Below are positions 19,419-60,649 of a stretch of DNA of 64,000 bases, in pieces; the first letter of the stretch is position 1, and each line of letters starts with the position of its first letter. The position numbers were made by a program, and so were the translations under genes. Under the pieces are notes generated by a model. That model saw only the letters and a list, made by a program, of their open reading frames with translations. It ran no database searches and was not told where the DNA came from. This DNA comes from Ureibacillus thermophilus (GTDB taxonomy: Bacteria > Bacillota > Bacilli > Bacillales_A > Planococcaceae). The DNA is taken from the NCBI RefSeq assembly GCF_004331915.1, contig NZ_CP036528.1, positions 1,254,567 to 1,318,566 of the forward strand, written 5' to 3'.

Positions 19419-20070
19419 TACAGTTTGTGTATTCCTATTAATGAGGAAATTGTATTCCAAATATCCCACTCCATTATTAATGCCCATTTTAACATCGACG
19501 ATAATTATCATTGCAGGGTTGTTGCTTTTGAATATTCCTTTTGATGTTTATATGGAAGGTGGACGTTATCTTCAACATCTATTGGGACCGGGTGTTGGCG
19601 CTTTAGCTTATCCGCTTTACAATCAATGGCAGATGGTGTTGAAGTACAAATATACAATACTATCCGGCATTGTGATTGCAATGGTGAGCGGTATAATAAG
19701 TGTTTATACACTGCTTGTCGTTTTTAAAATCGATAAAGAATACATCTTAACTGCCTTGCCTAAATCAATGACGACACCAGTTGCAATGAACGTCAGCGAA
19801 ACTATTGGGGGAATTCCGCCTCTTACCGCAGTATTGGTGTTGATTGCAGGATTTACGGGAGCTCTTCTCGGCCCTCTTATGTATTCCCTTGGAAGAATTC
19901 ATTCTCCTATCAGCCGGGGAGTTGCCATGGGAAGCGCAAGCCATGGGGTTGGTACGGCAAAGCTGGTTGATTATGGTGAGCTGGATTTATCCGTTGGTTC
20001 ATTATCGATGGGCTTAAGTGCAGTGGTTGGAGCGATTTTATGTCCTATCTTTGTCTATATCTTTATGTAA
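19384..20070 (+). CDS. lrgB: LrgB/CidB-family membrane protein (copy 2)
   Basis: This is a 228-residue paralogue of the protein at 17998, the same length and with the same motifs (LTALPKSMTTPVAMNVSE, GGIPPLTAVLVLIAGFTGA, SHGVGTAKL). GGAGGGAGAAAGGG precedes ATG 19384 with good spacing. Two lrgAB operons in tandem, each with its own upstream region, point to an old duplication and possible division of roles such as CidAB versus LrgAB or pyruvate transport. Confidence 0.88.
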   Translation: MWIVRASVSIISTVCVFLLMRKLYSKYPTPLLMPILTSTIIIIAGLLLLNIPFDVYMEGGRYLQHLLGPGVGALAYPLYNQWQMVLKYKYTILSGIVIAMVSGIISVYTLLVVFKIDKEYILTALPKSMTTPVAMNVSETIGGIPPLTAVLVLIAGFTGALLGPLMYSLGRIHSPISRGVAMGSASHGVGTAKLVDYGELDLSVGSLSMGLSAVVGAILCPIFVYIFM

Positions 20071-20077
20071 TAAAAAA

Positions 20078-20351
20078 GAGGCTGGGACATAAACAAAAAA
20101 TTAAAGGGGCAGTTGAAAGAGTTTTGATAAAAAATTGATATAACTAAAAATTGATTGGAGTGACGGGGCGACTCCTGCGGGATCAGCCCGTGTCTCGAGA
20201 CACCGCAGGAGCGAAGTAATGAGCTCCGAGGAGGCTCGAGCCGGGCCCGCGGAAAGCGTCCCCGGAACGGAAATCAATTTTAATAACATATCAAAAAAAC
20301 ATCATTTTCTCCTTGGAGAAAATGATGTTTTTTTAGATTTGTCCCAGCCTC
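20078..20351 (+). repeat. GAGGCTGGGACA repeat element, copy R1
   Basis: The 274-bp element is bounded by GAGGCTGGGACA and TGTCCCAGCCTC. Inside are the GC-rich core (GGCGACTCCTGCGG, CCGCAGGAGCGAAG, GCCCGCGGAAAGCGTCC) and a perfect 15-bp hairpin AACATCATTTTCTCC-TTGG-pair followed by T7. It lies between convergent lrgB2 and speA and probably ends both. It has no plausible protein product. R4 at 38458 is nearly identical. Confidence 0.9.
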
Positions 20352-23341: not shown

Positions 23342-23982
23342 GTGCGCCCGGCATGTACATGAACTATAGGGTGTAAGTCCCGAACCCCGAAGACAGAAGT
23401 AGAGGTTAGCCAAGAGCAAGGGTGTCCGTGGTGACGCGGAATCTGAAGGAAGCTGGAGGCAAAACACCGGTCCGAGGAACACGAACCTCATATAAGGCTA
23501 GGTATGATTGAGTGAGTTTGCCAAACAAAACAAAGCTCTTTCTGTCGAAGGTCATATCGAGTAGATGAGGCGGATAGATGGTGTGAAAGTGCATGTACTT
23601 ACCCGGGGAGGTCTGGCGGATAGGTGAAGTACGCTTCATAACCTACTTAGCGATAAGTAGCTGAACCGTCAGAAGTCAGCAGAGGTCATAGTATTAGTTG
23701 GTCTAGAACAACTGAGAAGGACCGAGCAATTAAGAGAGAATAGCCCTTGGCATTCAGTGAGTCATGATGAACACAGAAAACGTAGTACCTCACTTGAGGA
23801 AGGAAGCGGTGAATCCCGTGGGAGACCTCTTGGAGGGTGGAGTGACCACTGGCATAAGAAGACAAGCTATTCACGGAAGTTATGAAAACTTGCGTCAATT
23901 ATCTTAATTGAACCGCCGTATACGGAACCGTACGTACGGTGGTGTGAGAGGACGGGAGCTAATCACTCCCTCCTACTCGATT
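23342..23982 (+). mobile_element. Group IIC intron lacking its maturase, with intact domain V (copy 2)
   Basis: The 641-bp sequence follows the plan of class C group II introns such as the one recalled from Oceanobacillus iheyensis. It begins GTGCGCCCGGCATG, has the CTATAGGGTGTAAGTCCCGAAC and GGGTGTCCGTGG segments of domain I, and GAACACGAACCTCATAT. It ends with a domain V hairpin (GAACCGCCGTATACGG..CCGTACGTACGGTGG) and a domain VI ending CTCGATT. Domain IV holds only about 47 codons that look like the maturase N terminus (NVVPHLRKEAVNPVGDLLE) fused to its C terminus (SYENLRQL). Reverse transcriptase is gone. It sits just after a terminator. Confidence 0.88.
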
Positions 23983-26222: not shown

Positions 26223-26569
26223 GAGGTTGGGACAAAACCCTCCTCTAAAAAAGATGAAAAAGAGGCTGGGACATAAACAAAAAATTAAAGGGGCAGTTGA
26301 AAGAGTTTTGATAAAAAATTGATATAACGAAAAATTGATTGGAGTGACGAGGCGACTCCTGCGACGAGCCCGTGTCTCGAGACACCGCAGGAGCGAAGTA
26401 ATGAGCTCCGAGGAGGCTCGAGCCGGGCCCGCGGAAAGCGTCCCCGGAACGGAAATCAATTTTAATAACATATCAAAAAAACATCATTTTCTCCTTGGAG
26501 AAAATGATGTTTTTTTAGATTTGTCCCAGCCTCTTTTTCCTATCTTGAAGCTAGTTTTGTCCCAGCCTC
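26223..26569 (+). repeat. Nested GAGGCTGGGACA repeat elements, copy R2
   Basis: An inner element (26262-26533, 272 bp) has the usual GAGGCTGGGACA / TGTCCCAGCCTC ends, GC-rich core and hairpin. It lies inside an outer pair, GAGGTTGGGACAAAAC (26223-26238) and GTTTTGTCCCAGCCTC (26554-26569), that would itself form a hairpin. The arrangement suggests that the inner copy entered an older, simple terminator of the same end sequence. It lies between convergent suhB and ylaF. The inner core lacks the GGGATCA of R1. Confidence 0.88.
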
Positions 26570-29128: not shown

Positions 29129-29191
29129 GAAAAGAAAAACAGCTTTGTGATTGCCATCATCATTTTCAACTGAAAATAGAAACATAGATTT

Positions 29192-29496
29192 GAGGCTGGG
29201 ACATAAACCAAAAATGATAGGGGCAGCTGAAAGAGTTTTAATAAAAATTTGATATAACGAAAAATTGATTGGAGTGACGGGGCGAGTTCCTGTCGCGCAC
29301 GCTTAGTCATAAAGCAAATATTTTCCTGCGATGAGCCCTGTCGAGACCACGAGGAGCGAAGGAATGACTCAGAGGAGGCTAGAGCCGGGCCCCGCGGAAA
29401 GCGTTCCCGGAACGGAAATCAATTTTTAATAACCTATCAAAAAACATCATTTTCTCTTTGGAGAAAATGATGTTTTTTTAGATTTGTCCCAACCTC
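29192..29496 (+). repeat. GAGGCTGGGACA repeat element, copy R3 (diverged)
   Basis: The 305-bp copy has GAGGCTGGGACA at the left and a variant TGTCCCAACCTC at the right. Its core carries a GCGCACGCTTAGTC-type insertion also found in R6 but absent from R1, R2 and R4. The terminal hairpin is kept (CATCATTTTCTC-TTTG-pair). It lies between ylaH and the ABC importer genes, the only copy not between convergent genes. Confidence 0.85.
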
Positions 29497-29623
29497 TTTT
29501 GTTGTTTCAGTAGGAGGAAATCAAGCAAAAGAGGAAGTTGTATCGGCAAGCACCCGTGGGCATTCACACATTATTTTCCCTTCGCATAACCTACTCTTGA
29601 TAATGGATGGAACCATGAAATAA
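29495..29623 (+). pseudogene. Possible C-terminal remnant of an unidentified gene
   Basis: An open frame without a start runs from the right end of repeat R3 to a TAA 13 bp before the next gene. It reads FVVSVGGNQAKEEVVSASTR and then GHSHIIFPSHNLLLIMDGTMK. It could be a gene end cut off by the repeat or chance. I do not recognise it. Confidence 0.25.
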
Positions 29624-29636
29624 GGAGGTAAGAGGG

Positions 29637-30233
29637 ATGAAATGGTGGAAGATTAGTCTTGTCGTTATGTTGGCAAGTATGGTGGTTCTTCTTGCTGCGT
29701 GCGGGGAGAAAGAAATGACAAAAGTAAAAGTTGGGGAAGTAACGCGCTCCATCTTCTATGCTCCTCAATATGTAGCAATTGCGAAAGGATTTTTTGAAGA
29801 AGAAGGACTTGAAATTGAACTTTCTACTATTCCAGGCGGAGATAAAACAATGACTGCCCTTCTTTCAGGCGGCATCGATATAGCCCTTGTAGGAGCAGAA
29901 ACTTCCATTTATGTAACGGCCCAAGGAGCCAATGATCCAATTAAAAACTTTGCTCAATTAACACAAACAGATGGAACTTTCTTAGTTGCCCGGGAAAAAA
30001 TTGACGAGTTTTCTTGGGAAATGTTGAAAGGTACTACATTCCTTGGCCAACGCAAGGGCGGAATGCCGCAGATGGTCGGTGAATTTGTATTGAAAAAACA
30101 TGGAATCGATCCGCATAATGACTTGAATTTAATTCAAAACATCGAATTTGCCAATATTGCAACAGCCTTTGCATACGGGTACAAAAAACACCACAAAAGG
30201 AATCATGTAATAATTGGGTTGCAGTGTCCTTGA
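29637..30233 (+). pseudogene. ABC importer substrate-binding lipoprotein, N-terminal part, interrupted by the island
   Basis: The first 179 codons are those of an NMT1/SsuA-like (NitT/TauT family) binding protein. It has a lipoprotein signal with LAAC (Cys22), then VTRSIFYAPQYVAIAKGFFE, and GGDKTMTALLSGGIDIALVG. After ATAFA the frame runs into island DNA (YGYKKHHKRN...) and stops at 30233. The missing 150 codons lie at 40235-40687 in the same frame. AGGAGGTAAGAGGG precedes the ATG. The shortened product lacks the second lobe and should not bind ligand. The substrate is unknown; ATPase and permease genes are intact beyond the island. Confidence 0.9.
30150..30195. other. attL of the island
   Basis: The left half is target coding sequence (AATATTGCAACAGCC), then the common TTTGCAT at 30168-30174, then the phage-type arm GGGTACAAAAAACACCAC (30177-30194). 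Confidence 0.8.
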
Positions 30234-30334
30234 TACAGTATTTAATGATCCATTAATGTGTGTGTAATTTTAATAAAGGATGGCAATGAATGTATTTAGT
30301 CCTTCTTGGTTACAAAGATTACGAGAGAGTGAAA

Positions 30335-31267
30335 ATGATGCCAATCTTGTCAATTGTCATACCTGCTTATAATGAAGAAAAAATGATATTAAAGGCGGCA
30401 TATACGATTTCAGAACTGCTGAATAAGGAAAAGATTTCTGCAGAAATTCTCTTTGTCAATGACGGTTCTGAGGATAATACTTGGAAAGAAATCCAGCGTG
30501 CAAGTCAAGAAATTGAGAATGTGAGAGGAATCAGCTTATCCAGAAATTTTGGTAAAGAATCTGCCATTTTGGCTGGTCTTACTCATGCCAAAGGGGATTG
30601 CTGCATTGTCATGGATTGTGATTTGCAACATCCTCCCGAAACAATCATTGAAATGTATAGGCTATGGAAAGATGGCTATGACATAGTAGAAGGATTTAAA
30701 AAATCCAGAGGCAAAGAAGGAAAAATTAAAACATTTTTTGCCAAAAGTTTTTACCGGTTAATCAATCGGGTCACAGGATTTGATATGTCAGCTTCTTCGG
30801 ATTTTAAGCTTTTAGACCGGAAAGTGGTGGATGCTTATTTACAGCTGCCTGAGCGAAAAGTGTTTTTTCGCGCTTTAACCTTTTGGCTCGGCTTTAAAAG
30901 CATTGGAGTGGAATATGAGGTGCAGGAACGAACGGAAGGGAAGACGAAATGGTCTTATCTTTCCTTAATAAAATACGCCATTACAAATATTACGTCCTTT
31001 TCTACTGCTCCTATGCAAATTATAACCATCATCGGTGTGTTATTTTTTATTTTTTCCATTGTTTTAGGTGTGCAATCTCTCATCAACTTTTTCAGCGGCC
31101 GTTCCCTTGAAGGATTTACAACTGTTATTCTTCTTTTATTGGGAATTGGCAGTGTGCTTATGATGAGTTTAGGGATTATCGGTTATTATATTGCCAAAAT
31201 TTATGAGGAAGTAAAACGGAGACCAAGATATATTGTTTCTGAAAAAACGAATGATAAGGATGAATAA
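30335..31267 (+). CDS. GT2 family glycosyltransferase, DPM1/GtrB-like, membrane-anchored
   Basis: This is a 310-residue enzyme. Residues 1-230 are a GT-A family 2 domain (LSIVIPAYNEE, FVNDGSEDNTW, GLTHAKGDCCIVMDCDLQHPPE with the metal-binding DCD, and QERTEGKTKWSYLSLIKYA). Two C-terminal TM segments follow (VLFFIFSIVLGVQSL and VILLLLGIGSVLMMSLGIIGYY). GtrB-type enzymes load a sugar, usually glucose, onto undecaprenyl phosphate at the inner membrane face. ATG 30335 gives the usual family N terminus; ATG 30290 is an alternative. It overlaps gtrA and starts the glucosylation module of the island. Confidence 0.88.
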   Translation: MMPILSIVIPAYNEEKMILKAAYTISELLNKEKISAEILFVNDGSEDNTWKEIQRASQEIENVRGISLSRNFGKESAILAGLTHAKGDCCIVMDCDLQHPPETIIEMYRLWKDGYDIVEGFKKSRGKEGKIKTFFAKSFYRLINRVTGFDMSASSDFKLLDRKVVDAYLQLPERKVFFRALTFWLGFKSIGVEYEVQERTEGKTKWSYLSLIKYAITNITSFSTAPMQIITIIGVLFFIFSIVLGVQSLINFFSGRSLEGFTTVILLLLGIGSVLMMSLGIIGYYIAKIYEEVKRRPRYIVSEKTNDKDE

Positions 31268-31685
31268 TAATTTGTGGAAGCGTATAGGCTCGGTAGTAGA
31301 TGAGAAGTTTTGGAAATTTATAATTGTAGGAATCGTGAATACCATTGTAGGAACGATGATTATGTTTGGTTTGTATAATCTCGCCGGATTTTCCTATTGG
31401 CTGTCTTCATCGGCTAATTATATTTTGACTAGCATTTTAAGTTATTTTTTAAATAAATATTTTACATTTCAGCATAAAAAAGATTCGTGGAAGTCGGCAT
31501 TGCGCTTTGCTTTAAATATAGCGGTTTGTTATTTGTTGGCATATGGAATTGCTAAGCAGTTGGCTCTGCTCCTTTTATCGAATGTTTCTGTCAAAGTGCA
31601 GGAGAATGTGGCAATGATTGTAGGGATGGTCTTTTTTACAATGCTCAACTATTTAGGCCAGCGTTTTTTTGCCTTTAAGGAATAA
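31260..31685 (+). CDS. GtrA-family membrane protein (probable lipid-sugar flippase)
   Basis: This is a 141-residue protein with four TM segments and the GtrA signature (FWKFIIVGIVNTIVGTMIMFG, then SYFLNKYFTFQ and a C-terminal NYLGQRFFAFKE). GtrA proteins are thought to move undecaprenyl-phosphate-glucose across the membrane. It overlaps the end of the GT2 gene by 8 bp. ATG 31251 is another possible start. Confidence 0.87.
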   Translation: MNNNLWKRIGSVVDEKFWKFIIVGIVNTIVGTMIMFGLYNLAGFSYWLSSSANYILTSILSYFLNKYFTFQHKKDSWKSALRFALNIAVCYLLAYGIAKQLALLLLSNVSVKVQENVAMIVGMVFFTMLNYLGQRFFAFKE

Positions 31686-31713
31686 TATAGTGGATTGAAT
31701 TGGAAAGAAAGTA

Positions 31714-33276
31714 GTGGTGGAAACTATGCCGGAACAAGTGTTAAAAAGTTTAAAAGAAAAAATACAACCTGAATGGGTGCTCGCATTTTTCTCAGCAGTG
31801 ATGATTGGCTTTTTAGCCCATGCTTATGTCTTTTTGCATCGTTTGCCGAATCATGATGGCATTATCAATATATATAATACGCAGGCGAAGGTTAAATCCG
31901 GGCGCTTCTTTTTAGGCCCTGCTAGTGGAATGAGTTCTTTTTTTGATCTTCCTTGGGTTATAGGGGTGCTATCCATCCTTTTCTTGGGGTTGGCTGCTGT
32001 TTGTATCATTATTTTGTTTGATGTACGAAAAAAACTAGCTATTGTGTTAATTTCAGGAATTATCGTTGTTTTTCCAAGCGTGTCTGCTACATTTGCCTAT
32101 ATGTTTACAGCAGATGGTTATATGCTGGGCATCTTTTTTGCCATTTTAGCCGTAGTGTTGACGAAAAAATATAAATTTGGCTTTCTGATTGGAGCCATTC
32201 TTCTTTGTTTGTCTGTAGGGATTTATCAGGCAAATTTATCCGTAGCACTTGTTTTTATCACGTTATGGATTATTCATGAGATTTTATTTTCCACGTTTTC
32301 AACGAAAGTAATCGGGCTTCATATCCTTCGTTCAGGTTTGGCTGTAGGGATTGGAATGGTGTTGTATTTGGCCATATTTAACTTTTTTACAAAGTTTTTA
32401 AATGTACAAATTACGAGCTATCAGGGACTGGATAAAGTAGGAGCTGTAACAATACATGATATTCCAAAACGGTTAGTGCAGATAAAAGAAGAGTTGTTAA
32501 GTTTTTTCTTCGATAGTTTTTACAATCATCATGATATAAGTTTACTGCCGATATTGAATGTTTTCATTTTCATCACCCTCATTGCGGCAGTTTTTACAGT
32601 GATTGTGAAAAAACATTTATATAAAAACCTTTTACATATGATCCTTTTCATAGTGCTGGTAATGAGTCTTCCGTTTAGCTATTATATTGTTTATTTTATT
32701 TCGCCGGTTGCGTTTTATCATACGTTAATGGTTTTTAGTTTAAGCAGTGTGTATATTTTCCTTGTGCTGCTGTATGATGCTGTAGAAGAAAAACGGCCAT
32801 TATGGGTGGAAAAGGTCAGCTCTTGGGCAACGGTATTGTTGATGAGCGTTGCGATTTTTAATTTCGCCATCATTGCGAATATTAGTTATTTTAATATGGA
32901 ATTGCGACATGAAAAAACAATGAATTTGACTAATCGAATTCTTGACCGAATTGAACAATTGGATGAATACGAAGACATTAAAAAAATGACAGTGTTCGGA
33001 AAAGTTCCCATGCATTCAGAATTGACTTCTGAAATTATTCCAAACCGTATTCCCCATATGATTGGGACAACAGGAGAAGTTTTTATTTCGGAACCATATC
33101 ATTATACGGCATTGTTTGACAGTTTCTTTGGTTATTCATTGGATATTGCCACTGAAGAAGAAAGAAAAGCAATCCAACAAAGCAGGGAATTTAAAGAGAT
33201 GGGCGTTTGGCCTGCCAAAGACTCCATTAAAGTATTTGATGATATTGTTGTTGTGAAATTTGAGGACATAGAATAA
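31714..33276 (+). CDS. GtrII-like polytopic glucosyltransferase
   Basis: This is a 520-residue membrane protein with roughly ten TM segments and the pattern of the Glucos_trans_II family: RLPNHDGIINIYN, SGRFFLGPASGMSSFFDLPW, FTADGYMLGIFFAI and SVGIYQANLSVALVF, with a long extracytoplasmic C-terminal part. Such enzymes move the sugar from the lipid carrier to a surface polymer. The likely acceptor here is a wall polymer, glycolipid or surface glycan, and is not shown. GTG 31714 has GGAAAG before it; ATG 31726 is an alternative start. It follows gtrA after 28 bp. Confidence 0.83.
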   Translation: MVETMPEQVLKSLKEKIQPEWVLAFFSAVMIGFLAHAYVFLHRLPNHDGIINIYNTQAKVKSGRFFLGPASGMSSFFDLPWVIGVLSILFLGLAAVCIIILFDVRKKLAIVLISGIIVVFPSVSATFAYMFTADGYMLGIFFAILAVVLTKKYKFGFLIGAILLCLSVGIYQANLSVALVFITLWIIHEILFSTFSTKVIGLHILRSGLAVGIGMVLYLAIFNFFTKFLNVQITSYQGLDKVGAVTIHDIPKRLVQIKEELLSFFFDSFYNHHDISLLPILNVFIFITLIAAVFTVIVKKHLYKNLLHMILFIVLVMSLPFSYYIVYFISPVAFYHTLMVFSLSSVYIFLVLLYDAVEEKRPLWVEKVSSWATVLLMSVAIFNFAIIANISYFNMELRHEKTMNLTNRILDRIEQLDEYEDIKKMTVFGKVPMHSELTSEIIPNRIPHMIGTTGEVFISEPYHYTALFDSFFGYSLDIATEEERKAIQQSREFKEMGVWPAKDSIKVFDDIVVVKFEDIE

Positions 33277-33286
33277 TTTTTATAAC

Positions 33287-33324
33287 TAGTGGTGTTGGCG
33301 TGTTATGTCAGCACTATTTTTTTT
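33287..33324 (+). terminator. Terminator of the glucosylation module
   Basis: TAGTGGTG and CAGCACTA form an imperfect stem, followed by nine T. Confidence 0.75.
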
Positions 33325-33346
33325 TGAAGTAATTTAAATATAAAAT

Positions 33347-33396
33347 GAAGCTGCTAATTCCTGATTTTTTGATTAGAATTAGCAGCTTCGTTTTTT
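33347..33396. terminator. Bidirectional terminator before the MFS gene end
   Basis: GAAGCTGCTAATTC and GAATTAGCAGCTTC form a perfect 14-bp stem with a 15-nt loop, followed by G and T6; AT-rich sequence on the other side also suits the leftward MFS gene. Confidence 0.85.
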
Positions 33397-33422
33397 ATAG
33401 ATTAAAGGTGAAATACATTTTT

Positions 33423-34913
33423 TTATTTATTTTTTTCCATGTTTTCTGCAATCCCTTTGCTTACATCAACGCGTTTTAAAAACAATGCTAAGATTAACGC
33501 TACTCCTGTAACAACGGCTGCCACTAAGAAGGAAACTTGGACACCTTCAAGCAATGCTTGTTGCTGAATTCCGGCTATGAACATTTGGTCTTGTAATTGA
33601 GCTGGATTTGAAGCTTTTGCTGCTTCCACCAACTCTTCGCCCTTATTAGTAGCGACAGAGTTCATTAATGTTACAAATAGAGCTGTACCGATAGAACCAA
33701 CTACTTGTTGGATTGTGTTGTTCACCGCTGTGCCATGCGGATTTAATTGATTTGGCAATTGGTTTAAACCGTTTGTCATAATTGGCATCATAACCATTGA
33801 CATACCGAACATACGAAGCGTATACATTAAAACGATTGTCGTTTTCGTTGTTTCCAAATCCATAGTGGATAGTAAATATGTTGCGTATCCTGTAATGGCT
33901 AAACCGATTAATGCTAAGACGCGAGGTCCGAATTTGTCAAATAATTTACCGGTAATTGGCGACATAATCCCCATCACTAGTGCGCCCGGAAGCATAATTA
34001 AACCAGAATCGAGCGGTGAAATGCCGCGGACACTTTGTACATAAGCAGGAGTCAAAATCATGCCGGAGAACATGGCTGCCGTTACAACCATTGATATAAT
34101 ATTCGCTAGTGCAAACATTGGATATTTGTAAACACGCAAATCTAATAATGGCTGTTCTAAACGGAATTGGCGAACAACGAACAAAATGATGCCCAATGCT
34201 CCAACGATTAGTGTTGTCAATACAGTTGCGTCTGACCAGCCATCGTTCGAAGCTGTTGAACAGCCATATAATAAACATCCGAAACCAATAATGGATAACA
34301 CAACAGATATATAGTCAATGGAAGTATGGCGTGTTTCCAAAATATTTTCCAATTTCCAAATAGCAAGTAAGAGGCTGAGAATGGCAAATGGCAAAATCAT
34401 TTCAAATAAGATGCGCCAGTCCCAATACTCTACAATATAACCGGATAATGTTGGACCAATAGCTGGGGCAGTAATCATTACTAATCCGAAAATCCCCATG
34501 GCCGCCCCTCGTTTTTCTCGTGGGAAGCTGACGAGCATGATGTTCATAAGTAATGGACCCATGACGGAACCGCCTGCAGCTTGAAACATACGTCCAGCTA
34601 AAAGAATGCCAAAATTAGGAGCATAAGCTGCTAGTGCCGTTCCAATTGTAAAAAGGAACATCGCTGTAATAAACAAATGACGGTTTTTAAACCGCGTAAT
34701 TAAAAAGGCGGATACAGGAATTAGTACACCGCTTACGAGCATATAGCCTGTAGCTAACCATTGTACCGTTGAATATTCAATTTCAAAGTCCTTCATTATC
34801 GTTGGCAATGCAACGTTTAATAAGGAGTTATTTAAGAAAGATACAAACGCACCAAAGAAAAGTATTGCGATGACTAAATATGGCGGTTTTTTCTCCTTAT
34901 CGTCTAATGTCAT
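33423..34913 (-). CDS. DHA2-family MFS drug efflux transporter (EmrB/QacA-like)
   Basis: This is a 496-residue transporter with 14 predicted TM segments. It has the family's early motif LNVALPTIMKDFEIEYSTVQWLATGYML, the motif A-like loop ITRFKNRHLFI and the motif C AAGGSVMGPLL with APAIGPTLSGYIVE. These proton-driven pumps export hydrophobic drugs, dyes or detergents. A divergent TetR gene starts 144 bp away, a usual layout for regulated pumps. It lies inside the recombinase island. Confidence 0.9.
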   Translation of the reverse strand: MTLDDKEKKPPYLVIAILFFGAFVSFLNNSLLNVALPTIMKDFEIEYSTVQWLATGYMLVSGVLIPVSAFLITRFKNRHLFITAMFLFTIGTALAAYAPNFGILLAGRMFQAAGGSVMGPLLMNIMLVSFPREKRGAAMGIFGLVMITAPAIGPTLSGYIVEYWDWRILFEMILPFAILSLLLAIWKLENILETRHTSIDYISVVLSIIGFGCLLYGCSTASNDGWSDATVLTTLIVGALGIILFVVRQFRLEQPLLDLRVYKYPMFALANIISMVVTAAMFSGMILTPAYVQSVRGISPLDSGLIMLPGALVMGIMSPITGKLFDKFGPRVLALIGLAITGYATYLLSTMDLETTKTTIVLMYTLRMFGMSMVMMPIMTNGLNQLPNQLNPHGTAVNNTIQQVVGSIGTALFVTLMNSVATNKGEELVEAAKASNPAQLQDQMFIAGIQQQALLEGVQVSFLVAAVVTGVALILALFLKRVDVSKGIAENMEKNK

Positions 34914-35018
34914 ATTTTCCCTTCCTCATTTCTCTTTTTTTTGACTTAAACATTTTATACCTGCAGTTCATTTTTGGCAACAAAAAAATACATTGGGTTC
35001 AAATTCTGTTTTTTCGTG

Positions 35019-35024
35019 TATAAT
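35019..35024 (+). promoter_or_regulatory. Probable -10 of the TetR gene
   Basis: TATAAT lies 33 bp before the ATG of the TetR gene. A good -35 is not seen. The 34914-35057 interval has no clear palindrome to call an operator. Confidence 0.4.
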
Positions 35025-35057
35025 GATAATAAGCAATAATAAATAGAGGAGTTTAAA

Positions 35058-35954
35058 ATGAATAAAAGAAAAAAAGCAGTAGTGGATCACGCTTTACAAT
35101 TATTTGTTGAAAACGGCATTGCGAAAACATCCATTCAACAAATTATTGAAAGTGCAGGCATTTCAAAAGGAACTTTTTATAATTACTTCTCTTCCAAAGC
35201 GGAATGTATTGAAGCGATTTTAGAACAGGCAAGATATGATGCTTCGCTTTTGCGCGCTGAACTGATGATTGGTAAGGACCCTACGGATATTCATGTATTT
35301 GCCAATCAGATTGCAGTACTGTGGAAGATTAATCAAGAATCGGGATTGGATGTTTTATATGAAGAAATTTTGCATTCTGGGGAAGTGGAATTAAAACAAC
35401 TGGTGCTGCGCCATCGTTTATTAGAGTTTGAGTGGTTTAAATTGCGTTTATGCGAAATTTTCGGCGATGAAATCCGACCTTACGGATTTGAAGCGGCAGT
35501 TTTATTTTATGGAATGTTTCAATATTTAACCTTCACATGCAAAATTACAAATCATCAATCGGTTTCATTAGAAGAAATTGCTTCCACCTTATTAAAGTAC
35601 TTAGAAAAAATCATTGATTTAATACTCAAAGAAAAAACGGCTCTTTTAAATCCTGATAAAATTAATACATTTATTGCCGTATCAAAGAAACAATATTCTT
35701 TTGATATTACAGAGATAAAATATAGACTTAAGGAATTGGCTGAACAAAATTTAACGAACTCCCAAGAGGAAATTGTCACAGCAATTATAGAGGAAATCAA
35801 TCGCGAACCTCTTCGAACACGGATTCTCAACGCTCTCTTGAAAGTATTGATTGATGAATTTAAAGGCTCTGAATATGAACAAACGGTAAAAGAAATCGCG
35901 AGCCTTATTTGGTATGATGTACGGGCTAAACAATTGCAGCAAAAAAGCACCTGA
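35058..35954 (+). CDS. TetR-family regulator, long form, divergent to the MFS pump
   Basis: This is a 298-residue regulator with an N-terminal HTH (TSIQQIIESAGISKGTFYNYFSSKAECI) and a ligand domain extended by about 100 helical residues. This long form is like the YerO-like gene at 13429. The divergent MFS gene is its likely target. AGAGGAG precedes the ATG. The gene ends at a strong hairpin. Confidence 0.88.
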   Translation: MNKRKKAVVDHALQLFVENGIAKTSIQQIIESAGISKGTFYNYFSSKAECIEAILEQARYDASLLRAELMIGKDPTDIHVFANQIAVLWKINQESGLDVLYEEILHSGEVELKQLVLRHRLLEFEWFKLRLCEIFGDEIRPYGFEAAVLFYGMFQYLTFTCKITNHQSVSLEEIASTLLKYLEKIIDLILKEKTALLNPDKINTFIAVSKKQYSFDITEIKYRLKELAEQNLTNSQEEIVTAIIEEINREPLRTRILNALLKVLIDEFKGSEYEQTVKEIASLIWYDVRAKQLQQKST

Positions 35955-35992
35955 AATGTAAAGGGGAATCCAATAACTTACCATCAAAAAAG

Positions 35993-36035
35993 AGCTATTT
36001 TAGTAGGAGGCAATCTACTAAAATAGCTTATTTTT
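35993..36035. terminator. Terminator between the TetR gene and the recombinase gene
   Basis: AGCTATTTTAGTAG and CTACTAAAATAGCT form a perfect 14-bp stem with an 8-nt loop, followed by TATTTTT. It lies between convergent genes and has an A-run on the other side. Confidence 0.92.
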
Positions 36036-36047
36036 CTGCAATTATCT

Positions 36048-37619
36048 TTAATAAAGTTTTCCATTCAAATAATCTGATAATGAGAGATTCAATTCAATGT
36101 CAATTTCATTTTTTCCAAAGTACACTTTATGAATTATCTTTGAAAGCATCGCTTTTATTAAATCTTCATCGGCTTCATTAAATTTTTGTTCCCAGTTTTT
36201 GAATTGATTTTCCGGCTTATCGGCATGATCCCGCTCTTTATCTAATGCTTCCTTTAAATCATTGATTTGCCTTAACTTTTCTTCAAGTTGCTTTTCGATG
36301 GCTTTCAAGGCGAGAGATAACTGTTCAGGTGTAAATGCACTTTCCCCAATTAACGCTTTCCCAATCTCCAGATTTAATTTTTCCTGCTGTTTTCTTAAAT
36401 CTCCATATTCTTTTTTTAAATTTTTCAGATTTTGTTCCTTTAGCTTTAGGAATTCATCTTTTCCAGTTTGGTTTTTATTAAAGAAGGATTCTAATTCCAA
36501 TTTGGATAGAATGGTTTTGAGTTGATTGATGATAAGAGTGTCATATTTTTTTCCGCCCCAAACGTTTTGTTGGTGGCTCCCGTGCAATTTGCCTTTATTC
36601 AAAGGGCATCGGTAACGGTAAATGATCGTTTTAGAAGATTCATTTTTGGAAGTTCTATAAAGATAATTTGATGTCAGTTTAGAACCGCAATATTTGCAAT
36701 AGGCAAGGCCAGAGAATAGAAGCTTTCCGGTTCTTGGGATGCTTGATTTATCTTGTTTTTCAATAGAATTGTGCCGGACCTTTCGGATTCGTTCTGCTTG
36801 ATAAAAGAGTTCATCAGAAATAATCTTTAGTTTTTCGTTAAAAGGCTGCGTTCCTCCTAAAGCGGATTTATATCGCTTGTATCCGATGTAAATGGGATTG
36901 GATAATATGCGCTGGATGGTGCTTACAACAAAAATGCTACCATCTCTTGTTCGGAACCCATGTTCATTTAAATAATCGGCAATTTTCCGATAGCCCATCT
37001 GTTTGTTTACATATAAATGGAAGATTAACTTTATCATTTTTGATTCCATTTCGTCTGGGACTAATTCTTTCAGTCGGCGGTCTTTGTTTTTCCAATGAGG
37101 TTGATTCGTTTCCACGATTTTGTACCCAATGGGAGCTGTACCACCTTGAAAAAAACCTTGTTCACCAAGCTGTTTTTTTGCCTCTTTTACCCGAATGGAA
37201 GTTTTTTGGCTTTCGCCGTCGGATTGCCAAAAGCTGATATAATTCAGGAGCTTATCGACATGGGATTCAATTTTCCTCTGTCCTTCTTTAACAGACCAGA
37301 CTTCTATGCCATGTTGAATTAAAAAATTGACCATAACCGGCGTTTCATCTTCCCGCCGGCCTAACCGGTCGAACATGAAAACGAGCAAAACGTCAAATTT
37401 TTTCTTTAATGCGCCTTCTTTTAATGCAGCCATTTCATCCCGTTCACTAGCAGTCTTTTTCCAGCCAGATACGCCCTTTTCATATAACTCATTGGTGATG
37501 GTCCAATCGGGTTTGTTTTTGACGAATTCATGGCAGGCATTTTTTTGCATCGGAATGTCTTCATCTGCACTGACTTGTTGTTTTTTCGATACCCGATAAA
37601 GACACCAAACCCGCTTCAT
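36048..37619 (-). CDS. Large serine recombinase (site-specific integrase of the island)
   Basis: This is a 523-residue recombinase. The N-terminal resolvase catalytic domain starts CLYRVSKKQQ with nucleophile Ser11 and holds the FDVLLVFMFDRLGRREDE segment. A recombinase domain (YRKIADYLNEHGFRTRDG, then ILSNPIYIGYK) follows at about 200-260. A zinc ribbon (LAYCKYCGSK with a later RCPLNKG) lies near 320-365, and a coiled coil covers 390-470. This is the layout of phage-type large serine integrases, which join attP and attB unidirectionally without host factors. The attL/attR pair around the island fits this enzyme. A small gene lies 18 bp upstream. Confidence 0.95.
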   Translation of the reverse strand: MKRVWCLYRVSKKQQVSADEDIPMQKNACHEFVKNKPDWTITNELYEKGVSGWKKTASERDEMAALKEGALKKKFDVLLVFMFDRLGRREDETPVMVNFLIQHGIEVWSVKEGQRKIESHVDKLLNYISFWQSDGESQKTSIRVKEAKKQLGEQGFFQGGTAPIGYKIVETNQPHWKNKDRRLKELVPDEMESKMIKLIFHLYVNKQMGYRKIADYLNEHGFRTRDGSIFVVSTIQRILSNPIYIGYKRYKSALGGTQPFNEKLKIISDELFYQAERIRKVRHNSIEKQDKSSIPRTGKLLFSGLAYCKYCGSKLTSNYLYRTSKNESSKTIIYRYRCPLNKGKLHGSHQQNVWGGKKYDTLIINQLKTILSKLELESFFNKNQTGKDEFLKLKEQNLKNLKKEYGDLRKQQEKLNLEIGKALIGESAFTPEQLSLALKAIEKQLEEKLRQINDLKEALDKERDHADKPENQFKNWEQKFNEADEDLIKAMLSKIIHKVYFGKNEIDIELNLSLSDYLNGKLY

Positions 37620-37637
37620 TCCACACCACCCGTTTCA

Positions 37638-37844
37638 TTAGAATAATAGTTCTAAGAAAAAGGTTTTTAATGCATTTTCGGCTTCTAATCTTTTATCCTT
37701 ATCTTTCGTGAATTTTAGATGAATTTTCACTTCGTTGTCTAATATCTCCGTTAAATAATCGAACCTTTCATCAGATTTGTATATATATTTTCCTCCGTCA
37801 ATGACGATTTCTTTAATGCTTCGAGGAGGATTTACATGATTCAA
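37638..37844 (-). CDS. Small protein upstream of the recombinase (68 aa), unknown
   Basis: This is a 68-residue soluble, charged protein (VNPPRSIKEIVIDGGKYIYK, ending ENALKTFFLELLF). It begins at TTG 37844 with GGAGGG 6 bp before it and ends 18 bp before the recombinase start, so both are probably one operon. I do not recognise the family. Small genes beside serine integrases sometimes act as directionality factors or regulators; that role is only a hypothesis here. Confidence 0.72.
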   Translation of the reverse strand: MNHVNPPRSIKEIVIDGGKYIYKSDERFDYLTEILDNEVKIHLKFTKDKDKRLEAENALKTFFLELLF

Positions 37845-38151
37845 CCAGATCCCTCCAATTTTGTTGTGTTAAATTGTATTCGATTAAAAAGGATAATATT
37901 AGTCATTGTTCGGGGAATGCGCGTTTTTTGTTGGGGTGGGTTATTCTAAAAAGTTTTCTTGATGAGTTTGCAGGAAATAAAAAAGAAATTGGAACCTTTT
38001 GTCATTTTTTTCGTAAATTTAGTAAGGAAAGTTTTGGAATGAATTTGAAAAAGGTTGTGGGAATTTTCGTCGGTTATTTTTTACCTTTTCCCATGACGTT
38101 TTTATAAAGGAGTAAATAAGTGGAAACCGAATGGGTACAGAGGTGATTGGG

Positions 38152-38430
38152 ATGAATAAAAATAAAGTTGGAAATATTTTAGGAATTAATTCAATTTTAC
38201 CTGCAATCGTGAGTATGATCGTTTTTTTTATATTATCAGGACCGGATGCAGATGGTTATTTAATAGTAATAATTTTTAGTCTTTTATCAATTATCGGTGT
38301 TTTTATGGCTGTGATTGGCTTGATTTTTGACAAGAGGCGTATAACAGCCTTTATCGGATTAGTCGCTAACTTGATTGTGTTGGTTTGCACTTTTTTATTA
38401 TTCTTAGCGATGCGTATAGGGGAAGTTTAA
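38152..38430 (+). CDS. Small membrane protein (DUF4064-like), island cargo
   Basis: This is a 92-residue protein with about three TM segments (SILPAIVSMIVFFIL, IVIIFSLLSIIGVFMAVIGL and AFIGLVANLIVLVCTFLLFL). The small TM protein pattern recalls DUF4064. Function is unknown. AGAGGTGATTGGG lies before ATG 38152; an ATG seven codons upstream lacks a good site. The 37845-38151 interval shows no supported gene. Confidence 0.65.
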   Translation: MNKNKVGNILGINSILPAIVSMIVFFILSGPDADGYLIVIIFSLLSIIGVFMAVIGLIFDKRRITAFIGLVANLIVLVCTFLLFLAMRIGEV

Positions 38431-38457
38431 TAGAAAGGTAGAGTTATTTTGTCTAAA

Positions 38458-38731
38458 GAGGATGGGACATAAACCAAAAATTAAAGGGGCAGTTGAAAGA
38501 GTTTTGATAAAAAATTGATATAACTAAAAATTGATTGGAGTGACGGGGCGACTCCTGCGGGAACAGCCCGTGTCTCGAGACACCGCAGGAGCGAAGGAAT
38601 GAGCTCCGAGGAGGCTCGAGCCGGGCCCGCGGAAAGCGTCCCCGGAACGGAAATCAATTTTAATAACATATCAAAAAAACATCATTTTCTCCTTGGAGAA
38701 AATGATGTTTTTTTAGATTTGTCCCAGCCTC
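38458..38731 (+). repeat. GAGGCTGGGACA repeat element, copy R4 (inside the island)
   Basis: The 274-bp copy differs from R1 at only a few positions (for example GGGAACAGCC for GGGATCAGCC). It lies between the convergent small membrane protein and OYE genes. Near identity with a copy outside the island means recent spread, recent gene conversion, or an island from a close relative. Confidence 0.9.
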
Positions 38732-38776
38732 ATTTAGCATTGCAAACAAATATTTTTCATTGTTCTATATTTCTTG

Positions 38777-39907
38777 TTAACGTTCTTTTACAGGAAACCA
38801 GCCGGGTCTATTTAAAATTTGATCCCATAAGCCATCCGGAATGATTAATTCTTCTTGTTGGTCTGTATAGATGCAAGTTGCGATTTCATTTTCTCGTCCT
38901 TCTTCAATTTTTTGCATCCAATCAGGATCTACAATCATCTCTCTTCCTATGGCAACAAGTGAAATGCCTGTGTCGAGTGCTTCTTTTGCATCATCTGCGG
39001 TAATAATGGAACCGACTCCGATAAGCGGCACACGTCCATTGATGGTTTCAAGCAAATATTCAATGCGCGTTTTTGTTAAATCTTTGACGCCGACTCTTGG
39101 GGTGGAGCGGAAATCATGCAATGAAACATGAAGATAATCAAGCCCTTTACCGGCAAGAACATCGACAAACGCAATGGTGTCTGCCATCGTAATGCCAGGT
39201 GTTTCAGGTTCTTCCGGAGAAAAACGGTATCCGACAATGAAAGGGCTTTTCGCATATTTAGCGACAACGCTTTTTACTTGATCGATAATCTCAAGCGGTA
39301 ACGTCATCCGTTTTTCAAGGGTGCCGCCATATCGGTCAGTTCGGCGGTTAGAGTGAGGCGAGAAAAATTGGTGAATTAGATATCCGTTCGCCCCGTGGAT
39401 TTCAACTCCGTCAAATCCTGCTTCAATTGCCCGGCGAGTTGCTTCTCCAAAGGCTTCCACAAGTTCTTTTATTTCATTTTCTGTCAATGCCCTTGGTGTT
39501 TTCATTCCGGGTTTTTCAGCAGGAACAGCACTCGCACTGACGATCTCGCCATTTGGTACAAGTTCAGGTGGACATAATCTTCCACCGTGATGGATTTGAA
39601 GAATGGCCTTTGCGCCTTGTTCTTGAATGGTTTTTGCCACTTTTCTTAAGCCAGGAATCATTTCATCGCGGTCTGCTGCAAATTGGCCGTGGAATGCTTT
39701 TCCATTAGGCAATACATAAGCGCAGGCGGTGATGACTGCACTCACGCCGGAAGATCGGCGGGCATAGTATTTCAGTTCCACTTCCGATACAGAACCGTCT
39801 GGATTGGAAGACCAGTGCGTCATTGGAGCAATGACGATGCGGTTTTTTAAAGTTACACCATTTGGAAAAGTATAAGGTGAAAATAAATCTTTATATTTGT
39901 CCTTCAT
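38777..39907 (-). CDS. NADH:flavin oxidoreductase, old yellow enzyme family
   Basis: This is a 376-residue TIM-barrel FMN enzyme. It has LKNRIVIAPMTHWSS, LQIHHGGRLC, the EIHGANGYLIHQFFSPHSN motif with NRRTDRYGG, and a C-terminal IGVGSIITADDA and VAIGREMIVDPDW. OYE enzymes reduce activated alkenes, nitro compounds and quinones with NAD(P)H; B. subtilis YqiG is a similar protein as recalled. ATG 39907 with GGGGGAAA upstream fits the family N terminus; an in-frame start 22 codons upstream is less likely. It is the last complete gene before attR. Confidence 0.9.
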   Translation of the reverse strand: MKDKYKDLFSPYTFPNGVTLKNRIVIAPMTHWSSNPDGSVSEVELKYYARRSSGVSAVITACAYVLPNGKAFHGQFAADRDEMIPGLRKVAKTIQEQGAKAILQIHHGGRLCPPELVPNGEIVSASAVPAEKPGMKTPRALTENEIKELVEAFGEATRRAIEAGFDGVEIHGANGYLIHQFFSPHSNRRTDRYGGTLEKRMTLPLEIIDQVKSVVAKYAKSPFIVGYRFSPEEPETPGITMADTIAFVDVLAGKGLDYLHVSLHDFRSTPRVGVKDLTKTRIEYLLETINGRVPLIGVGSIITADDAKEALDTGISLVAIGREMIVDPDWMQKIEEGRENEIATCIYTDQQEELIIPDGLWDQILNRPGWFPVKER

Positions 39908-39982
39908 TAACGGTTTCCCCCAAACTGTTAAATTGCTACTATAACGATAAGCCTTTATCAGATTCCTTTTCAAATAGATTGC

Positions 39983-40207
39983 TTAAAAATATCCGCAGAG
40001 TGTTTTAGGACAAATCTTTCTTTATACAATTCCGCTCAAAAAATTGAACAACAATCGTATGATAAAGGATATTTAAAAGCAGGGATGCGGGAAGGAGAAG
40101 ACGATGTTTATAGAGTTGATGGTCCAGTAGACAATCCAATTGATGAAAATAAATTGGAGCTTATTGAAAGAAAGTTATATGTGTCTTCCATCATTGAAAT
40201 GAGGTAG
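39983..40207 (+). pseudogene. Startless 3' gene fragment ending in the attR arm
   Basis: An open frame of 74 codons ends at a TAG inside the right island arm. It reads YDKGYLKAGMREGEDDVY, then VDNPIDENKLELIERK and ends SSIIEMR. No start codon with a ribosome binding site was found. The composition looks like protein-coding sequence, but the family is not recognised. It may be the tail of a lost gene. Confidence 0.35.
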
Positions 40208-40250
40208 TGTTTTTTGTACCTCCATGCTTTTGCATCCGGTACTGGTGAAT
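40203..40250. other. attR of the island
   Basis: The arm GTAGTGTTTTTTGTACC (40204-40220) is followed by TCCATGCT, the common TTTGCAT (40229-40235), and target coding sequence CCGGTACTGGTGAAT. Confidence 0.8.
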
Positions 40251-40687
40251 TTGTACAATTGTTCGAACCAACTGCAAGCGTTTTTGAAAAAGAAGGAATC
40301 GGCCATGTAGTCGCCTCATTCGGTACGGAATCCGGCCGCGTGCCTTATACAGTGTTTATGGCCAAAAAGAGCTACTTAAAGGAAAATAAGGAAGTGGCGG
40401 AGAAATTTACAAGAGCCATTAAAAAAGCGCAAGATTATGTGTATGAAGCGCCAGCAGAAGAAGTGGCAAAAACCATTCAGCCATTCTTTGAAGATACAGA
40501 TGTTGAATTAATTGCGCAAGTGGTAGAACGTTATCGCCAGCAAGAATCATATGCGAAGGATCCGATTTTAGATGAAGAAGAATGGAATAACTTGCAGGAT
40601 ATCATGGATGAAGCAGGGGAGCTTCCGATGCGCATGGATTATTCAAAACTAGTGGATACAACATTTGCAGAGAAGGTTTCGAAGTGA
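40229..40687 (+). pseudogene. ABC importer substrate-binding lipoprotein, C-terminal part, separated by the island
   Basis: This is the second half of the gene at 29637. From FAS at 40229 it continues GTGEFVQLFEPTASVFEKEG, then FMAKKSYLKENKEVAEKFTRAIKKAQDYV and ends TFAEKVSK. It has no proper start of its own; the preceding codons are island DNA. Joined at TTTGCAT the full protein would have 329 residues, the usual size for NMT1-like binding proteins. The stop is 1 bp before the ATPase gene, so the downstream genes depend on transcription from within the island or through it. Confidence 0.9.
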
Positions 40688-40688
40688 T

Positions 40689-41453
40689 ATGGGCTTCTTA
40701 GTTGTTGAAAATGTCAGCCATACGTATTTTTCAAAGGATGCGGCAACGGAAGCGTTACAGGATATTCATTTAACCATTGAAGCAGGTGAATTTGTATCCT
40801 TTATCGGACCAAGTGGATGCGGAAAAACAACGCTGCTTTCAATTATTGCAGGATTGATTTCCCCGACGACAGGAAATGTATATATTGACAATCAAAAGGT
40901 ATACGGAAATAAAGAACTTTCCATTGGGTATATGTTGCAGCAAGATTATTTATTCCCTTGGAAAACCATAGAGGAAAATATTATTCTTGGGTTAAAACTA
41001 TTAAATAAACCATTTGATGGGAAAATTGCATCCAAACTATTGGAAGATGTGGGGTTGCCGTCCATTGAGAAAAAATATCCTCGGGAGCTTTCCGGTGGGA
41101 TGAGGCAGAGAGTGGCTCTTGCCAGAACGCTTGCAGTAGACCCGAAAGTATTACTTTTGGATGAACCATTTTCCGCTCTTGACTATCAATCAAAATTGAA
41201 GCTGGAAGATTTAGTTTCAAAAATGTTAAAAGCCTATAGTAAAACAGCCATTCTTGTGACCCATGACATTGGGGAAGCCATTGCGATGAGCGACCGCATC
41301 TTCTTATTCTCAAAAAGACCTGGCCGAATTCATCAGACTTTCGAAGTGCCAGAAGAAATTAGAAACTTAACTCCATTCGAAGCAAGAAGCCATTCAAGCT
41401 ACTCCCCGCTATTTCAAGAAATTTGGAAGGAGCTTGAAAGCCTTGAACATTAA
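40689..41453 (+). CDS. ABC importer ATP-binding protein (NitT/TauT family)
   Basis: This is a 254-residue ATPase with Walker [10 protein letters not shown], a [20 protein letters not shown]-loop, the signature [15 protein letters not shown] and Walker [12 protein letters not shown]. The PWKT(I/V) pattern is typical of SsuB/TauB/ThiZ-like ATPases. It follows the binding-protein fragment by 1 bp and overlaps the permease by 11 bp. An in-frame start 8 codons earlier lies within the previous gene. Confidence 0.93.
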
Positions 41454-42237
41454 AGAACTCCATCAAGCATATAAGAAAAGGCTGGCAAAGGAAAAACGCT
41501 GGATTCGATTTTATCAATTACTGATCTTAGCAGGTTTTTTCGCACTATGGGAAACCGCTTCTTCCAATCGCTGGATTGATCCGCTCATCTTTAGCGCTCC
41601 TTCAAGAATTTTTAAACTACTGCAAAGCATGATTTCAGATGGTACGATCTTTATCCACATGAACTATACATTGTTTGAAACGATTCTAGGGTTTATTTTA
41701 GGAACGCTTATTGGCACGATTCTAGCAGCCATCCTTTGGTGGTTCCCAAATCTATCAAAAATTTTGGATCCTTATTTAGTTGTGTTAAATTCCATGCCAA
41801 AAGTGGCTCTTGGACCAATCCTCATTGTCGCCCTTGGCCCAGGAATGACTTCCATTATTACAATGGGGGCTATAATTTCAGTAATCATTTCCACAATCGT
41901 CATTTACACATCCTTCCGCAATGTGGATGCCAACTATCTAAAAGTATTGCAGACCTTTAATGCGACGAAATTGCAAATGTTTAAAGAAGCCATTTTGCCT
42001 GCATCATTCCCAACGATTATCTCTACATTAAAAGTAAATGTTGGATTGTCCTGGGTAGGGGTCATTGTCGGCGAGTTTCTTGTTTCTTCCCAAGGACTTG
42101 GCTATTTAATCATTTACGGTTTTCAAGTATTTAATTTCAATCTTGTGTTGATGTCCCTTCTCATCATTGCGATTTTTGCAACAATCATGTACCAGTTGGT
42201 TGAGATGCTAGAAAAACGGTTAATCAAATATGAGTAA
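41443..42237 (+). CDS. ABC importer permease (NitT/TauT family)
   Basis: This is a 264-residue permease with six TM segments and the BPD_transp_1 EAA loop ([25 protein letters not shown]) plus [21 protein letters not shown] 41443 has AAGGAGC 9 bp before it. It completes the importer whose binding protein is split by the island. Candidate ligands are thiamine precursors, aliphatic sulfonates or similar small compounds. No riboswitch was seen upstream of the operon to decide. Confidence 0.9.
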
Positions 42238-42268
42238 AAAAGACAATAATAAATGTTTATAAAAATAT

Positions 42269-42621
42269 GAGGCTGGGACATAAACAAAAAATTATAGGGG
42301 TAGCTGAAAGAGTGTTGATAAAAAATTGATAGAACGAAAAATTGATTGGCGTGACGGGGCGACTCCTGCGACGAGCCCTCTCGAGACCACAAGGATCGAA
42401 GGAATGAATCAGAGGAGAGTCTAGCCGGGCCCGCGGAAAGCGTCCCCGGAACGGAAATCAATTTTAATAACATATCAAAAAAACATCATTTTCTCCTTGG
42501 AGAAAATGATGTTTTTTTAGATAAAGCGTCCCCGGAACGGAAATCAATTTTAATAACATATCAAAAAAACATCATTTTCTCCTTGGAGAAAATGATGTTT
42601 TTTTAGATTTGTCCCAACCTC
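42269..42621 (+). repeat. GAGGCTGGGACA repeat element, copy R5, with internal tandem duplication
   Basis: The 353-bp copy has the usual ends and hairpin. Its last 86 bp, from AAAGCGTCCCCGG to the TTTTTTTAGAT after the hairpin, are present twice in tandem (42437-42522 and 42523-42608). It therefore carries two full terminator hairpins. It lies between the convergent permease and ylaI. Confidence 0.9.
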
Positions 42622-60330: not shown

Positions 60331-60636
60331 GTTTGGACAAATCAAAAAACATCATTTTCTCCAAAGAGAAAATGATGTTTTTTGAGATGTTATTAAAAAT
60401 TGATTTCCGTTCCGGGGACGCTTTCCGCGGGACCGGATCGAGCCTCCTCTGAGTCATCCCTTCGCTCCTCGTGGTCTCGAAAGGGCTCGTCGCAGGAAAG
60501 CTTTGAATTTACTTCCTTGAACTTGCTCCGCTTTGCGACTAAGCGTGCGAGACAAGATTCGCTCCGTCACTCCAATCAATTTTTTATCAAAACTCTTTCA
60601 GCTGCACCTATAATTTTTTGTTCATGTCCCAGCCTC
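60331..60636 (-). repeat. GAGGCTGGGACA repeat element, copy R6 (inverted)
   Basis: The 306-bp copy is in the opposite orientation to R1-R5 and has a degenerate end (GTTTGGACAAATC). It keeps the hairpin (CATCATTTTCTC, loop, GAGAAAATGATG) and has the long core with a GCGACTAAGCGTGCGAGAC segment, like R3. It lies between convergent DUF523 and GDPD genes. Confidence 0.87.
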
Positions 60637-60649
60637 TAGGATGAAAAAA

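Follow-up and report, generated by a model that had tools for sequence, protein, structure and literature searches.

Intervening elements have been described in sigK, spsM, spoVFB, spoVR, gerE, kamA and yabG, as named in excerpts of the cited papers, to which the statements on published systems below refer (PMC4191935, PMC5025042, PMC5595907, PMC6957869, PMC10747680). In skin, located in sigK of Bacillus subtilis, a small upstream gene for the directionality factor (skr) and the recombinase gene (spoIVCA) form one unit with a sigma-E promoter, and excision is limited to the mother cell (PMC6957869). The stretch analysed here, referred to as the window, comprises 64,000 nucleotides of Ureibacillus thermophilus (bases 1254567-1318566 of a one-contig genome of 3,017,325 bp, designated G000). 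It contains a 10,061-bp element with a large serine recombinase, inserted in the gene of an ATP-binding cassette (ABC) substrate-binding lipoprotein. This is probably a sporulation gene-intervening element of the skin and gin type, predicted to be excised in the mother cell.

The gin element in gerE of Bacillus cereus ATCC10987 resembles the element of the window in being non-phage, and in carrying a large serine recombinase; it lies in a mother-cell sporulation gene, as the element of the window probably does. Other shared traits are a short common core, an imperfect inverted repeat with a 2-bp centre and strain-variable cargo; gin also has a small additional factor, GirX, of 42 amino acids (PMC5595907), to which the candidate Orf68 would correspond. 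The target gene is different, and excision was demonstrated for gin whereas here it is predicted; in addition girX lies in a separate region, located by deletion, while the small gene orf68 of the window directly precedes the recombinase gene (PMC5595907). The unit of skin described above has its likeness in the window, where the sigma-E promoter and the directionality factor are putative, but skin is a defective prophage and its skr gene, within the sigK insertion, overlaps that of the recombinase (PMC6957869); Skr and Orf68 are likened by gene order, and the element of the window has no recognised phage gene. SP-beta in spsM, vfbin in spoVFB, vrin in spoVR and yin in yabG are likewise recombinase-bearing elements in sporulation genes, but they are described as phage or phage-like and no ABC importer is named as a target in the excerpts (PMC4191935, PMC10747680).

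Two further systems were compared. IME8 of Lysinibacillus was ruled out because it uses tyrosine recombinases (PMC13239906, in the portion available). Staphylococcal cassette chromosome (SCC) elements share with the window the CcrB family, the best named profile of its recombinase, but the window has a single recombinase and membership was rejected, the scores being far under the curated cut-offs: 100.6 bits for CcrB (cut-off 900), 83.3 for CcrC (900) and 47.7 for CcrA (700). SCC elements are inserted in another gene. No description of an interrupted ytlA-type gene was found in the open literature within the terms searched. What is new here is that the element most likely belongs to the mother-cell intervening elements, with a target not found in print, that it occurs in six genomes and that it has a candidate directionality factor.

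Boundaries of the element and the restored gene

The features at the two junctions are the following.

29637..30173, + strand, 5' half of the ABC substrate-binding lipoprotein gene, codons 1-179, with an NMT1-type domain; its frame continues into the element to 30233
30168..30174, + strand, attL core TTTGCAT, with the central dinucleotide TT at 30168-30169
30170..40230, no strand assigned, entire intervening element of 10,061 bp if crossover is at the central TT
30177..30194, + strand, left attP arm, shared among elements
40204..40220, + strand, right attP arm, shared among elements
40229..40235, + strand, attR core TTTGCAT, from sequence and symmetry
40235..40687, + strand, 3' half of the binding-protein gene, codons 180-329, in the restored frame

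The original prediction placed TTTGCAT at both junctions, and the copies are found at 30168-30174 and 40229-40235. A chance repeat was considered; TTTGCAT is no commoner than expected in the whole window (32 observed vs 31.1 expected) and carries no weight by itself, so what supports the element is the restored frame together with its arms and its relatives. The gene is broken after codon 179, and joining 1-30174 to 40236 onward in silico gives the single open frame of 329 codons that had been proposed, ending in a stop.

The arms, as read from the sequence, are GGGTACAAAAAACACCAC on the left and GTAGTGTTTTTTGTACC on the right. In the circle they form the predicted inverted repeat, with 16 of 17 positions paired (counted by eye) around an 18-bp spacer with TT at its centre. 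The best centre of symmetry in the circle lies 6 bases before the join, with 19 of 25 pairs, and the best clearly different centre scores 0.50. An attP-like symmetry of 18-20 of 25 pairs, a central TT and the shared arms were identified in all five elements with both ends known, which answers the proposal to look for the same arms at other loci beside related recombinases. The element encodes, as stated beforehand, its own large serine recombinase. Thus it presents a site within a protein-coding gene that is whole elsewhere, its own serine recombinase, a short shared core, an attP inverted repeat and a frame-restoring join.

Occupied and empty sites in relatives

The full-length binding-protein gene was identified in 20 of the 25 genomes of the genus, which is the empty site that the original prediction called for. 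TypA and a gene for a protein of 124 amino acids lie upstream in 17 of the 19 intact stretches fetched, the remaining two ending at a contig edge. Splits at the same codon within the genus are those of the window genome, G021 (7 kb), G022 (13 kb), G007 and G009. In G007 the halves are on two contigs, the element measuring about 27 kb or more if it reaches both contig ends; in G009 only the right junction is visible and the left half ends with the contig (51 codons). The sixth case is G470, from another genus of the same family, where a 7.4-kb element splits the gene at the same codon. The recombinases of the occupied sites are 75-85% identical (over 224 residues only in G009). With the whole gene in 20 genomes and five further occupied sites, the element is integrated and its ends are exact, and all structural points of the earlier reading are correct.

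The contents of two related loci differ from that of the window. The element of Lysinibacillus antri (G007; L054:6323-18656 and L055:7917-8918) carries a cyclase resembling those of cyclic-oligonucleotide-based antiphage signalling systems (CBASS) with an effector of four transmembrane segments. It also has two more serine recombinases in tandem, besides an Mrr-type nuclease and a candidate defence protein. G015 (L058:1-7464) contains a relic in which the left half is near-identical to that of the window (0.997 over 128 codons), followed by the glycosylation genes, the efflux permease, the TetR gene and then directly an intact binding-protein gene. This locus looks like a recombined or reverted element.

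The interrupted gene as a probable sporulation gene

The binding protein is NMT1/SsuA-like, and its operon comprises two more importer genes and a promoter-like block.

29566..29593, + strand, sigma-K-like block (AC, spacer, CATAnnnTA) before the binding-protein operon; the sole strict match in the window, with 8 loose ones
40680..41453, + strand, ABC importer ATPase, same operon
41434..42237, + strand, ABC importer permease, same operon

Homologues of the binding protein were counted at E 1e-70 in 299 Bacilli genomes. The gene was identified in 138 of them and SpoIVA in 210; all 138 gene-bearing genomes have SpoIVA, 72 have SpoIVA without the gene and 89 have neither. The gene is thus present in 138 of 210 genomes with SpoIVA and in none of the 89 without it (Fisher p 1.6e-31, which overstates independence because the sample is phylogenetically structured). 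The sigma-K-like block was identified upstream of the gene in all 26 genomes compared, that of the window included; among 30 more distant homologues 16 have it, where mononucleotide shuffling leads one to expect 0.5. All 25 genomes of the genus have a sigma-K-like homologue free of stops, and the second sigma match of each was taken for sigma-E. No riboswitch was found before the operon at Rfam gathering scores.

The patterns used here follow the letter consensuses of sigma-K and sigma-E. Published spacings are 14-16 bases for sigma-K and 11-13 for sigma-E, and both promoter-like blocks of the window fit them, given the block edges as chosen here (PMC517825, as excerpted). In B. subtilis the three-component ABC importer ytlA, ytlC and ytlD is tabulated under sigma-K (PMC3416734) and its function is given as unknown (PMC11466899), in the portions available of both papers. 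By its like components, the gene of the window would be the counterpart of ytlA, and it looks like a late mother-cell (sigma-K) sporulation gene.

Selection and age of the split

The split gene evolves as the intact one does. Codon-model omega values of the halves are 0.034 and 0.038 in G000, G021 and G022, and 0.035 (five genomes) and 0.059 (six genomes) in the wider split sets, with 0.045 and 0.034 in 12 intact genomes. In-frame stops were not found in any half read from the six genomes (51 codons for the left half of G009), and between G000, G021 and G022 the halves are at synonymous distances of 0.8-1.5. This pattern of selection fits a gene rebuilt in a terminal cell, unlike an old pseudogene.

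G000 and G021 share a common order of efflux permease, TetR, recombinase, orf68 and oxidoreductase, and the synonymous distances of these element genes (0.9-1.75) are similar to those of the flanks (0.8-1.6). In the recombinase tree G000 and G021 are apart from the rest (support 97) and G022 groups with G009 (100), the root having a support of 43; both groupings are compatible with descent within the host clade. The exceptions are G007 and G470, whose recombinases cluster (96) against the host tree, with a recombinase synonymous distance of 0.46 vs 1.11 for TypA. Old residence in the gene together with horizontal spread is our reading, the alternative being repeated fresh insertion.

The recombinase, orf68 and their partner family

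The putative switch of the element is formed by two genes and one block.

36048..37619, - strand, large serine recombinase of 523 amino acids, with Resolvase, Recombinase and zinc-ribbon domains passing Pfam cut-offs
37638..37844, - strand, orf68, 68 amino acids, directly before the recombinase; candidate recombination directionality factor by position and conservation
37873..37901, - strand, sigma-E-like block before orf68 and the recombinase, conserved in 6 of 6 elements

In all six elements orf68 lies directly before the recombinase gene on the same strand. The block before it spans ATGACTAATATTATC to CGAATACAATTTAACA in the window; 31 of its 45 columns are invariant in the six elements vs 3 of the 60 preceding columns, and without the 11 anchor columns the count is 20 of 34, with 5 of 30 after the block. 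In the window the sigma-E-like pattern has one strict match, before orf68, and two loose ones. The second loose string, at 56602, has no evident sporulation gene downstream, which puts the loose pattern at about one chance match per window. The conserved block, which is similar to a sigma-E promoter apart from the first -10 base, suggests that the recombination genes may be under sporulation (sigma-E) control.

Recombinases with 57%, 41% and about 35-40% identity are immediately preceded by small frames like orf68, at loci that include a contig like those of integrative and conjugative elements (ICE) and loci of Lachnospiraceae and Defluviitaleaceae. L105 and L106 are IMG/VR contigs with conjugation-like genes (by eye), the 57% recombinase relative and an orf68 homologue, and the module of recombinase and partner serves ICE-like elements too. 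The sigma-E-like block was found before none of the three partner genes of L105-L107. The orf68 profile search accepted 24 distinct frames, its later rounds being partly circular, after two out-of-frame shadows and one weak match had been discarded. A partner stands beside 22 of the 40 distinct recombinases whose N-terminus scores over 200 bits. Among the other 18, one lies next to masked DNA (L091) and three (L085, L093, L094) are behind another recombinase. Profile-profile comparison gave 90% and E 1.4e-6 between the close and middle partner groups and 42% and 2.6e-4 between the middle and far groups, which supports kinship of the former pair and less so of the latter.

AlphaFold models Orf68 with moderate confidence (pLDDT 77) as four strands plus one helix, and a deeper alignment gave no better model. 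Foldseek of this model against PDB gave no match at E < 0.001, the weak matches including Pur-alpha and YkuJ entries. At first sight proteins like Orf68 resemble TnpW, the small protein of Tn4451, but identity with it was rejected: PF14202 had no match in G000 and matched in 4 of 11 genomes, in two over the cut-off, away from the recombinase loci. Orf68 stays a candidate directionality factor, by its place and conservation. A PDB sequence search with the recombinase profile gave no match at E 0.001.

A second capture of the same gene

Another interruption of the importer gene was identified in a third genus. In G555 (L170-L172) and G493 (L174-L175) the gene parts meet near codons 104-111, with gaps of about 6.7 kb and about 4.7 kb respectively, and between them is a serine recombinase of 466 amino acids which is 26-27% like that of the window over 311 residues. 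In G521 (L173) the right part, from codon 107 onward, follows a recombinase of 462 amino acids and phage-like genes (by eye); no left part was seen within the stretch read. The chances are about even that the importer gene, as a late mother-cell gene, is a repeated safe harbour for excisable elements, captured independently by two unrelated serine-recombinase systems, one after codon 179 in six genomes from two genera, the other near codon 105 in a pair of genomes from the third genus and perhaps G521, and that the first system brings a new family of directionality factors, with a fold of four strands plus a helix, encoded immediately before recombinases in many Firmicutes.

Proposed excision and alternative explanations

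A sigma-K-like importer operon together with a sigma-E-like block before the recombination genes makes excision expected in the terminal mother cell. During growth the element would stay in the binding-protein gene and be carried in the germ line. In the mother cell, RNA polymerase containing sigma-E would transcribe orf68 and the recombinase gene from one promoter; the recombinase and Orf68, the likely directionality factor, would recombine attL and attR at the central TT, and release of the circle would rebuild the 329-codon gene. Sigma-K would then transcribe the rebuilt operon of binding protein, ATPase and permease late in the mother cell, which dies later, the spore thereby inheriting the element. 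It had been claimed that excision would switch the importer back on; the intact gene obtained by excision in silico agrees with this, but the timing is amended, the event being expected in the mother cell instead of as an ordinary growth-phase switch.

Several observations weigh against excision in the mother cell. Excision itself is a prediction. Both promoter patterns were devised after the sites were seen, and in a control they matched none of 5 sigK upstream regions, nor that of the second sigma gene of G000, hence they are no calibrated promoter test. The sigma-K pattern is absent before 14 of the 30 distant homologues, and its loose form has 8 matches over the two strands of the window. 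The strict sigma-E pattern is found in 4 of 6 elements, G022 and G009 having AATATA instead of AATATT; these two are identical over the block, so the six elements give five distinct sequences for the 31 invariant columns. The first -10 base of the block is A, where the sigma-E consensus has C. None of the 25 sigma-K homologues is over the curated cut-off, the B. subtilis control being likewise under it, and the second sigma homologue has a stop in one genome of 25 (G009). G015, within the split clade, has an intact copy of the gene; 18 of the 40 recombinase relatives have no recognised partner; Orf68 has no family or structural match in the searches above; and the sigma-E-like pattern was found within 420 bp before none of the three second-site recombinases.

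An ordinary integrated island, inactivating a dispensable importer and excised rarely and without relation to sporulation, is an unlikely explanation. The diverse cargo would suit it, as would the standing of mother-cell excision as a prediction from sequence, and independent recent insertions would leave the halves intact too; but purifying selection on the halves equals that on the intact gene, with no stops despite the synonymous distances of 0.8-1.5, G000 and G021 share the element backbone at similar distances, and the promoter-like block is conserved across six elements, unlike the DNA around it. That the halves work as a split binding protein, with no excision, is scarcely credible: both halves are conserved and a possible TTG start of the right half lies inside the arm, but the right half lacks an N-terminal signal sequence and is preceded by no conserved ribosome site (both by eye), and the break presumably falls inside the two-lobed fold of the protein.

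Regulated excision could also occur in growing or stressed cells, or for transfer, instead of in the mother cell; the Listeria comK prophage is an example of the former (PMC5025042, as excerpted). Here this is quite improbable. It would agree with the 57% recombinase relative and its related small partner, whose contig has conjugation-like genes (by eye), and with the G007 and G470 recombinases, which are closer than their hosts and indicate that the element moves. Against it, no sampled genome has the importer without SpoIVA, a sigma-K-like block precedes the importer, and the block of orf68 is unmatched before the three L105-L107 partners.

If excision in the mother cell is true, programmed gene rebuilding in this cell would extend to a nutrient importer and to bacteria of the Ureibacillus and Lysinibacillus type, in an arrangement so durable that the split gene has evolved as if it were intact. 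The unrelated elements in the same gene would be a natural experiment on why genes of a terminal cell shelter mobile DNA. The recombinase, attP, attB and the candidate directionality factor are a potential recombination tool, and attention is drawn to a little-studied sporulation transporter.

Other genes of the element and minor observations

The nine proteins of the element are three of glycosylation type, an efflux permease, a TetR regulator, the recombinase, Orf68, a 99-residue protein and a flavin oxidoreductase. Those other than the recombinase and orf68 are listed below, the cargo being assigned by profile scan.

30338..31267, + strand, cargo, family 2 glycosyltransferase
31260..31685, + strand, cargo, GtrA-type membrane protein
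31714..33276, + strand, cargo, GtrII-type glucosyltransferase
33423..34913, - strand, cargo, DHA2-type major facilitator superfamily efflux permease
35058..35954, + strand, cargo, TetR-type regulator
38131..38430, + strand, protein of 99 amino acids, hydrophobic by eye
38777..39973, - strand, cargo, old-yellow-enzyme-type flavin oxidoreductase

Among the nine proteins scanned, no phage structural or lysis genes and no relaxase or conjugation genes were recognised; a PHROGs search with three of these proteins had no matches at E < 0.001 other than to integrases and invertases. A short open fragment before the right arm (40028-40207, + strand) resembles the tail of another gene.

A dispersed repeat family was identified at 20070-20333, 26259-26515, 29191-29473, 38455-38713, 42265-42603 and 60337-60668 of the window, with one copy just upstream of the split gene and one within the element. 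Finally, group II intron RNA domains are located at 23425-23981 on the + strand.

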